Source: Planctomycetota bacterium
Lineage (GTDB): Bacteria > Planctomycetota > Phycisphaerae > Phycisphaerales > SM1A02
Length of the DNA: 64,000 nt
NCBI GenBank assembly: GCA_022574595.1
Contig: JACZRS010000011.1
Location: 62,001 to 126,000 of the forward strand
Direction: 5' to 3'
The notes beneath the pieces are model-generated. The model searched no databases, was not told where the DNA came from, and worked only from the letters and a program-made list of their open reading frames with translations. Position numbers and translations under genes: made by a program. Of this stretch, positions 3,262 to 30,349 are shown piece by piece (within the stretch, counting starts at the first letter, position 1; every line of letters starts with the position of its first letter).

Positions 3262-3981
3262 CTAGCGAGCCGGCAAGTCCCGTCCCCAGCCACATTCGGG
3301 GCAACCTTGCTCAAACTTGCCGAGCAGGTTGTATCCGCAGGTGGGACATTTGCCGATGTATCGTCTCGCCTTTTTCACGTTGGATCGCATCCAGCCGCCG
3401 ACCACACCTATCACTAAATAGCACAGTAAGGCATAGGTCAGTGTATTCACCAAAAATCCTAGTGGTTGAACTCTGTAAGGAATCCCGCGCCCGCAGCTCC
3501 TGCAGTTCGGTATCTTGAACTCAAAGGCAAGCACTGCCTGCTCATGGTAATGAATTACGCTTTGCCTCGTACCTGGAAGTGTGAGCTTCCATATTGAGTT
3601 GTCGACCTGGACTGGCCGCTGATCCGCTCTTGTCCAGTACGAATACTCGAAAGTCGGCAGCGGTAAGCCGATTCTTCGCTGAAAAGATTGAATGATAATG
3701 CCATTGCTATTGGCTGAACTACCAGTTTCATCTATCTCGATGTTTTGTAATTGTACCTCGGCCATACCGATTTTCTGCGATGTGCTGCGCGCTGTCGGCT
3801 CACCAACTGCTTCCGATGGCCTGTGCGCCAACCACCAATCTCGATCATTCTCGGTAACCGGATCGCGCGGCGAGAAGCTTGTTGGAGGATCCCACCACCA
3901 TGCAATTGACCAAGCCACGGAGATATTAACAATCGCGCCGAGGAGAAGAAACAATCCAAGTTTGAACATGCGGCGTTTCAC
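3262..3981 (-). CDS. Membrane protein with C-terminal zinc ribbon, paralogue 1
   Basis: A 239-residue protein with an N-terminal membrane segment (FKLGLFLLLGAIVNISVAW), a polar extracytoplasmic middle part, a second membrane segment near residues 180-200 (ALLCYLVIGVVGG) and a C-terminal zinc ribbon with four cysteines (CPTCGYNL...GCPECGW). This layout is common in planctomycetes; the function is unknown. The start is GTG at 3981-3979; the paralogue at 29432-30109 has the same GTGAAACG start and nearly identical bases just upstream, which supports this choice. A 158-bp two-hairpin element lies 58 bases upstream, as it does for that paralogue. Confidence 0.75.
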   Translation of the reverse strand: MKRRMFKLGLFLLLGAIVNISVAWSIAWWWDPPTSFSPRDPVTENDRDWWLAHRPSEAVGEPTARSTSQKIGMAEVQLQNIEIDETGSSANSNGIIIQSFQRRIGLPLPTFEYSYWTRADQRPVQVDNSIWKLTLPGTRQSVIHYHEQAVLAFEFKIPNCRSCGRGIPYRVQPLGFLVNTLTYALLCYLVIGVVGGWMRSNVKKARRYIGKCPTCGYNLLGKFEQGCPECGWGRDLPAR

Positions 3982-4039
3982 GGTAATAAAGTATACGCTA
4001 ACAATATAGATTGATGGATAGATAAAGGGCTACATCGCC

Positions 4040-4197
4040 ATTTAGCCCGCCGTGAATACACGGCGGGCGGAGAGTGTGCGAATTTCAAATAACGTGCGAA
4101 CTAGCAGCAAACATTGGCATTCCACGGTTAATTGTGGAATCGAACATGACAGAGTTTACGGGCGCTCCGCCCCAGGTGTATTCACCTGGGGCTAAAT
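4040..4197. repeat. 158-bp two-hairpin element, copy 1
   Basis: The element begins ATTTAGCCC and ends GGGCTAAAT, a perfect terminal inverted repeat. Each end is a perfect 10-bp hairpin: GCCCGCCGTG/CACGGCGGGC around AATA (4045-4068) and GCCCCAGGTG/CACCTGGGGC around TATT (4169-4192). Read inward, both ends share the frame ATTTAGCCCxxxGTGAATACAC. The interior holds a further 7-bp hairpin, ATTCCAC/GTGGAAT. A homologous copy lies at 30164-30322. It lies immediately upstream of a zinc-ribbon gene and could be a REP pair (BIME), a MITE or a structured leader RNA. Confidence 0.8.
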
Positions 4198-4316
4198 AGT
4201 TGTTGGCTGAAGAATTGTTCTCACATTCTGGACAAACATCCTACCGATATCAGCCTAAGACCGTAGAATGTAATCCCGTAGAAGATTTAGGCCATTCAAA
4301 ACTTGGAGAAAACACC

Positions 4317-28778: not shown

Positions 28779-29423
28779 TTACGCTTTTACCTCATCGCGT
28801 TTCCACCCACATTCCGAGCAGCCACTATCTCGATTGCCTCGCAGGTCGTAATCGCATTGTGGGCAGAACTTATATTCTTTGCGTAATCGCCTTGGAGTTC
28901 GACGAATTATGGTTGAAACAATGGCAATCCCGAGGCTGTGGATCGCTATATTTAGAATAAAGCGAAACCATAACACGTTATAGGGAATTAGTTGGTAATC
29001 TATAGAATCAAGTATAACTGCTCCATAAAGTTGGATCTGATCCTTACCTTGAAGCATATCGGGATATATGCCTGCGCCTCGGACGAACCTAATTGGCCAG
29101 CCTACTTCAAGCTCACGAACTTGAAATGGGCCAGTAAACGTTCCGACATTTTTGTTATCGCTAAGCAAGCTCTTTCCAGCAAATCCTATTAAGCTATTTG
29201 CAGATACTGGAGATCTATAGCGATTCCATAGATCAATACTTTGAGAATCAGATAACACAGTAGACTCTTTGCGTCCGAATGAGTGGGTAATTTTTAAACA
29301 ACCTGCAAACGCCAGACAAATGTTAATCAAAGTTGCAGCACTCAATAGTAAGATCATACGTAAAAGCCATGAGCGTCTGTACATCGTTATTTGTTCGATG
29401 AAGTAATGATCTATTTGTTTCAC
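28779..29423 (-). CDS. Membrane protein with C-terminal zinc ribbon, paralogue 2
   Basis: A 214-residue protein with the same plan as the genes at 3262 and 29432: an N-terminal membrane helix (MILLLSAATLINICLAFAG), an extracytoplasmic middle, a second helix around residues 155-175, and a C-terminal four-cysteine zinc ribbon (CPQCDYDL...GCSECGW). The start may be the ATG at 29423 or one at 29384 (MYRRSW), which aligns better with the paralogues. It lies 8 bases downstream of the next paralogue and probably shares its transcript. Confidence 0.75.
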   Translation of the reverse strand: MKQIDHYFIEQITMYRRSWLLRMILLLSAATLINICLAFAGCLKITHSFGRKESTVLSDSQSIDLWNRYRSPVSANSLIGFAGKSLLSDNKNVGTFTGPFQVRELEVGWPIRFVRGAGIYPDMLQGKDQIQLYGAVILDSIDYQLIPYNVLWFRFILNIAIHSLGIAIVSTIIRRTPRRLRKEYKFCPQCDYDLRGNRDSGCSECGWKRDEVKA

Positions 29424-29431
29424 GAATTGCT

Positions 29432-30109
29432 TTATAAGTGCATACTATTGTCTCCATCATCCCGTTGCCAACCACATTCTGGGCAGCCGCCCTCGGAATT
29501 ACCCTGCAGATCGTAACCACATTTGATGCACAATCCGCGCTTACGGCGGATCACTCTGCGTGCTGTGAATGGGCCGAATGTCAGAAGCCAAAGAAATACA
29601 GCGTAGAAGATCGTGTTGATTGCGAATCCCGGCCAGATGGGGCGTAACGGGATAGTTAATGGCACTTGACGCCAACCCGCTTCAACCTGGCTCTGCCCCA
29701 CTCTCAAGCCGCCATGCACTTGGCACTCGGGTGAATTAACGTAGTTGTAATCCTCTAATGCAGACCACAACGATTGCATAGGCCAGCCTCTAGCATCAAA
29801 AGTGTTTATCCTAAATTTCCTAAAATCCGTTTGATCGATCCATCGCGGCAGTAAGTCAAAGAGATATGGCGATTCCGGAATACCGAAGAAATGCTCGCCC
29901 GCCGATCCATGTACAGTATTTACTTTGGCTCCAAATGATTTGTATTCCGTCACATAGTAAAAAGGAAAGCCGCTATCATCGCTAGCTAACACGACAGCGC
30001 TTTCCTTTGCGTATGGTTTGGACCATAGCGCGCACCCCCATGCCACAACAACATTAACTATGGCGCCGAGGAGAAGGAATATTGCGAGTTTGAAAACAAA
30101 CCGTTTCAC
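29432..30109 (-). CDS. Membrane protein with C-terminal zinc ribbon, paralogue 3
   Basis: About 225 residues from the GTG at 30109 (VKRFVFKLAIFLLLGAIVNV), a start chosen because paralogue 1 has the same GTGAAACG start and matching upstream bases; a longer frame reaches 30163. The layout is membrane helix, outer domain, membrane helix, and zinc ribbon (CIKCGYDL...GCPECGW). A copy of the 158-bp two-hairpin element starts 55 bases upstream, just as for paralogue 1, so gene and element look duplicated together. Function unknown. Confidence 0.75.
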   Translation of the reverse strand: MKRFVFKLAIFLLLGAIVNVVVAWGCALWSKPYAKESAVVLASDDSGFPFYYVTEYKSFGAKVNTVHGSAGEHFFGIPESPYLFDLLPRWIDQTDFRKFRINTFDARGWPMQSLWSALEDYNYVNSPECQVHGGLRVGQSQVEAGWRQVPLTIPLRPIWPGFAINTIFYAVFLWLLTFGPFTARRVIRRKRGLCIKCGYDLQGNSEGGCPECGWQRDDGDNSMHL

Positions 30110-30163
30110 GGTAATTAAGTATATGCCACGATAAGTCTTTTGGCATTGAAAACGATTGCGCAC

Positions 30164-30322
30164 ATTTAGCCCGCCGTGAATACACGGCGGGCGAGGAACG
30201 TACGAATTTCATATAAGGTACGGAATCGCAGAAAACTTTGGCATGCTGCGGTTCTTATTGAACCGATGGTGACAATGCTTGCGGACGTGCTTCACCCCAG
30301 GTGTGTTCACCTGGGGCTAAAT
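30164..30322. repeat. 158-bp two-hairpin element, copy 2
   Basis: This copy has the same outer frame as the one at 4040-4197: ATTTAGCCC at one end and GGGCTAAAT at the other, the identical left hairpin (30169-30192) and a right hairpin CCCCAGGTG/CACCTGGGG with loop TGTT (30295-30316). The interior aligns along its length (for example ACGAATTTCA and TTGGCAT) but has diverged. An internal hairpin, CGGTTC/GAACCG, occurs near the place where copy 1 has ATTCCAC/GTGGAAT. Confidence 0.8.
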
Positions 30323-30349
30323 GGGTGTGATGCGCTCAACCGTAGTAGA

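Follow-up and report, generated by a model that had tools for sequence, protein, structure and literature searches.

Two copies of a short palindromic element lie in the analysed stretch of planctomycete DNA (64,000 nucleotides, here called the window), and the question they raise is what kind of element this is and what has multiplied it. The first-pass annotation had described two perfect hairpins with inverted ends at 4040-4197 and a second copy at 30164-30322 that keeps the outer frame. Both descriptions hold in the sequence, with one loop changed in the second copy. Each end of copy 1 (158 bases) bears ATTTAGCCC, the two being inverted relative to each other, and its hairpins (4045-4068 and 4169-4192) have perfect 10-bp stems and 4-nt loops; in copy 2, the hairpins are found at 30169-30192 and about 30294-30317. 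Both copies are inverted hairpin doublets with a stem of 10 bp, the loop AAYA and the foot TTTAG, ATTTA being outermost at each end, and the consensus of the REP hairpin is CATTTA-GCCCNNNGTG-AAYA-CACNNNGGGC. The features of the two copies and of the genes beside them are:

4040..4068, plus strand: REP hairpin 1 of copy 1 (foot ATTTA, stem GCCCGCCGTG, loop AATA, stem CACGGCGGGC; covariance-model match C2:66039-66072, 52.4 bits)
4069..4168, no strand: spacer of copy 1, between the hairpins
4169..4197, minus strand: REP hairpin 2 of copy 1, inverted (stem GCCCCAGGTG, foot ATTTA outermost)
30164..30192, plus strand: REP hairpin 1 of copy 2 (from sequence and covariance model)
30193..30293, no strand: spacer of copy 2, between the hairpins
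30294..30322, minus strand: REP hairpin 2 of copy 2 (loop AACA)
3262..3981, minus strand: gene of a membrane protein with C-terminal zinc ribbon, beside copy 1, starting about 60 bp from hairpin 1
29432..30109, minus strand: paralogous zinc-ribbon gene beside copy 2 (reading frame open up to 30163; the conserved VKRFVFK probably marks the start)

Folded as single strands, the two copies reached z-scores of -6.1 (4039-4198) and -6.4 (30163-30323), and no shuffled sequence folded as well in either case. In a search of the whole window against Rfam at gathering thresholds, tRNA was the sole match. Among 30 aligned hairpin variants, the foot TTAG, GTG/CAC at the top of the stem and AA in the loop are all fixed, an invariance that is partly by construction for foot and loop, since both were part of the search patterns (the 30 variants were seeded on TTAG). 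Stem positions 5-7, in contrast, were unconstrained in the search, and their covariation is therefore not an artefact of selection. They vary freely with compensation (GC, CG, AU and UA types) and are paired in 97.3% of cases as compared to 82.9% after shuffling; the covariation score is 0.371 versus 0.098 +/- 0.018 in shuffles and collapses on sliding the register. A loop-seeded set likewise gave 249 Watson-Crick pairs out of 292, versus 156 when shuffled. That these positions vary and still pair argues that the form under selection is, as judged from the alignments, the single strand.

The element is by no means confined to the window. With the covariance model (E below 4e-9), we detected at least 43 hairpins in the 4.09 Mb genome, a lower bound since scoring covered 150 of the 1002 first-look candidates; REPINs and BIMEs usually comprise over 100 REPs. 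Twelve doublets of 159-162 bp account for 24 of these hairpins and a divergent pair on C17 for two more; the remaining 17 are singlets. The core GTGAATACAC occurs 35 times versus four times for the reversed control, and a fuller hairpin pattern 41 times versus none. Alignment of the doublets extends over their full length, with 72-88% identity for most and two divergent members, and the whole copy-1 doublet is 75-88% identical to most of the others. Two inverted REPs with a spacer are thus repeated 12 times in intergenic space, which is the arrangement of a REPIN or BIME. The first-pass annotation, which had seen two copies, held that a mobile-repeat origin would become unlikely if no others existed genome-wide; the 12 doublets dispose of that proviso. 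Its REP- or BIME-like reading gains support from the number of hairpins, the doublets and a cognate Y1-like transposase.

The best explanation, to which we assign a probability of roughly 0.88, is that the element is a REPIN, i.e. two inverted REP hairpins separated by roughly 100 bp of spacer, and that a small HUH/Y1 RAYT-like transposase, encoded between two REPINs on C31, recognizes the REP. We arrive at this reading because of the number of copies, the covarying stem, the position of the gene between doublets, orthologues that are flanked by hairpins, the co-occurrence of gene and hairpin, and a doublet-sized presence/absence site.

When 84,980 species genomes were scanned with the hairpin pattern, more than 115 stretches matched, nearly all from Planctomycetota, among them Pirellulales, Phycisphaerales and Planctomycetaceae. 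Matches were also noticed on short contigs that carry labels of other phyla (L245; L311, a Candidatus Nealsonbacteria MAG; L268, a Dehalococcoidia MAG), which possibly reflect binning contamination. Viral contigs gave only three matches. In several genera of other planctomycetes, profiles of Y1-like proteins match open reading frames directly between hairpins, and a profile from six such proteins matches the genome under study at C31:23774-24247 (E 1.7e-80). The gene (C31:23774-24265, the end being derived by arithmetic) encodes a 163-aa HUH/Y1 protein and sits between doublets at C31:23597-23757 and C31:24249-24410; its reading frame ends in SPPFSPP, and the stop codon TGA belongs to the next hairpin. 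A gene flanked by its own REPs, with further REPs elsewhere in the genome, has the organization of a REPtron. The first-pass annotation was right that no RAYT-type transposase is present at the window locus, but the search for a Y1 gene elsewhere in the genome, which it had recommended, leads to this cognate gene. The genes that Pfam Y1_Tnp recognizes in the genome were considered as cognate transposases and discarded, none being flanked by this hairpin; the C31 gene was missed by that search because it scores below the Pfam cut-off.

Among 151 related genomes, strong transposase matches occur in nine, the hairpin pattern in ten and both in eight (hypergeometric 7e-11; by genus five shared, 4e-6). 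The profile search gave no strong transposase match in the hairpin-positive genomes G023 and G091. In the ninth gene-positive genome (G039), and at a second gene in G070, hairpin variants with the TTTAG foot and different loops are found, as expected if hairpin and enzyme co-evolve. More distant Y1 relatives, including one on C27 of the same genome, have yet other hairpins on both sides. This C27 gene (L361, C27:44374-44889) is accompanied by a second hairpin type, TGTAAAGCCGGCGATGGCATCGCCGG, on both sides. We also noticed valyl-tRNA synthetase genes in which a Y1 transposase domain is inserted in frame, the reading frame continuing across it (L201:1401-5201 on C21 of the same genome and L350:61-3444 in G009). 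The C21 insertion has GTGGCACGGGC REP hairpins on both sides, and a different Y1 protein occupies what looks like the same place in G009.

The transposase lineage looks undescribed, in view of scores below the family cut-offs, the motifs WHVH and YxE[RK]HN, and the foot TTAG instead of GTAG, GTGG or CGTC. Pfam Y1_Tnp (PF01797) matches at E 0.02-0.05 (15.1 bits, cut-off 23), NCBIfam REP_Tyr_transpos (NF047646) at E 0.015 (15.2 bits, cut-off 80) and the NCBIfam IS200 model at E 0.002, likewise below its cut-off. A sequence search of the PDB returned weak IS200/ISDra2 matches only (E about 0.1), and a search of plasmids with the transposase gave no match. The alignment of the transposases (A1) has an invariant HVH (H86-V-H88) and an invariant Y141, and their motifs are WHVH, W[TS] and YxE[RK]HN. 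The best Foldseek matches of a weak AlphaFold model (pLDDT 64) are TnpA of IS200, IS608 and ISDra2 and the E. coli RAYT-REP complex (PDB entries 2f4f, 4er8 and 2xm3 being among the matches); however, VIA-align gave Thg1 a Z-score similar to those of transposases, so that the fold alone does not prove Y1 identity. With an HUH motif and one tyrosine in a predicted Y1 fold, the protein has the features of a RAYT/TnpAREP of putative catalytic activity. We propose that it may represent a new Y1 subclass, a suggestion drawn from motifs and foot rather than from a tree.

Comparison of related genomes shows one site with and without a doublet and one with and without the transposase gene. The congeners G036 and G087 have doublet DNA after the transposase gene and G065 has none, the flanks being 94-96% identical, and TCATTT borders the insert on both sides. 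At another locus, within one genus, a short doublet of G091 corresponds to doublet, transposase and doublet in G104 and G070. Each of these two differences fits insertion or loss, and the doublet-free site of G065 could have arisen by deletion between the TCATTT edge repeats. Inspection of the flanks, as the first-pass annotation had advised, gave no consistent target duplication in the flanks listed. This may speak against a MITE of a classical DDE insertion sequence, to which the terminal inverted repeats and the near-constant length of about 160 bp might otherwise point. Since both ends are perfect hairpins in their own right, with stems that covary, and the linked enzyme is HUH/Y1-like, we regard such an origin as extremely improbable.

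A further question is whether the copies are tied to the neighbouring genes. The zinc-ribbon membrane proteins form a family with about 60 matches genome-wide, often in tandem arrays (in the window at 3262-3981, 28779-29423 and 29432-30109), which is expanded in related genomes, too; searches of these genes against Pfam and NCBIfam gave no family above the cut-off. On the side of hairpin 1, a flank of about 100 bp, which is the start of a zinc-ribbon gene, is common to eight of the 12 doublets, the two in the window among them; these were therefore probably copied with the gene family and not inserted separately. That these eight multiplied along with the gene would be the simplest reading of the flanks. 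Several hairpins also lie exactly at the ends of zinc-ribbon genes, with the TAG of ATTTAG as stop codon. The first-pass annotation had offered a gene-linked role as its alternative, and the shared flank lends it some substance, although its premise of only two copies fails. As a full explanation, however, a regulatory structure at the promoter side or 3' end of this family, multiplied only by gene duplication, is improbable. In four doublets and the majority of singlets, the flank is missing or the neighbours differ, the hairpin spans several planctomycete groups and tracks the transposase instead of the zinc-ribbon family, and this family is also present in G009 and G018, in each of which the covariance model found no hairpin. 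Moreover, the hairpin-2 flanks of the eight doublets are unrelated, and homology between copies ends at the outer end of hairpin 2. Zinc-ribbon paralogues were not comparable as empty sites, since most of them are internal genes of arrays.

The isolated singlets are mainly situated behind genes, and in several the stop codon is supplied by the hairpin, as TAG in ATTTAG or TGA in GTGAA. In nine of the 17, a gene in sense orientation ends no more than 26 nt from the foot. Together with the bias of G-U pairs towards the TTAG strand (33 to 14) and one flank class that ends in TTCTTC, these nine would suit a transcription terminator or a stabilizer of mRNA 3' ends that is conserved as RNA. Most hairpins have no U-tract after them, however, and the conserved foot and loop as well as the inverted doublets around a transposase gene would be left unexplained, which makes this reading very improbable. 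As has been reported for other REPs, termination or stabilization might come about as a secondary effect.

We come back to the REPIN with its RAYT-like transposase. A small transposase acting on single-stranded DNA probably spreads the hairpin pairs; transposition itself we infer. The enzyme would bind the TTAG foot and the hairpin as single-stranded DNA, the conserved Y141 would nick beside the foot, and copies of the doublet would be pasted elsewhere, as proposed for RAYTs and REPINs. Later, most doublets of this genome, both window copies included, were probably copied together with a zinc-ribbon gene, and such copies would be no record of separate transpositions. A bolder view, which we consider unlikely, is that the transposase founds a separate HUH/Y1 class in Planctomycetota that reads TTAG-footed hairpins, moves doublets and carries neighbouring host genes, so that zinc-ribbon genes between hairpins are composite units with copies ending exactly at the REP end. 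If true, this would help to explain the large size of the zinc-ribbon family.

The REPIN reading adds an apparently undescribed pair of REP and RAYT-like gene for Planctomycetota, which current family models miss and which has a foot other than GTAG. In the literature on REPINs or RAYTs jointly with Planctomycetes, we found only surveys of other REP types, most subscription journals being outside the scope of this search. The related Y1 genes with matching hairpin variants make the reading of foot and loop by the enzyme testable within one phylum, and REPIN copies that ride on a gene family bear on any attempt to gauge transposition from copy number.

Among known systems, the BIMEs of E. coli likewise consist of REPs in alternating orientation in intergenic space, but here there is one fixed doublet length and a foot without GTAG. 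With IS200/IS605 elements, the system shares the Y1 HUH transposase fold and subterminal hairpins; in contrast to them, the flanking units are inverted hairpin doublets with many solo copies, as in a REPtron. The GTAG and CGTC super-families of REPs carry a GTAG (or GTGG) or CGTC tag by the stem (PMC3733652), whereas the hairpins of the window and the genome carry TTAG and are not members. TnpAY1 subclass 2.6 and the Planctomycetes-rich class 3 of Quentin et al. 2018 (PMC6006769) are alike in having an HUH-Y protein of about 160-180 aa and a REPtron with atypical hairpins, and class 3 also in the presence of W[TA] and the absence of the NP motif. However, the table rows considered give [ND]Hxh as HuH motifs and GT[AG]G, or CnGA for class 3, as feet; none of them matches the motifs WHVH, W[TS] and YxE[RK]HN, and the TTAG foot differs from the feet given. 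From the REPINs with RAYT (Bertels and Rainey 2011, PMC3116915), the present system differs in the TTAG foot, fewer copies, a transposase far from the curated RAYT models and a longer spacer, with a unit of about 160 bp versus 71 bp between 16-mers in the GI type of SBW25. It resembles them in its inverted REP doublets of constant length with singlets as remnants, in doublets beside a cognate tyrosine transposase, and in single-strand hairpins with compensatory changes.
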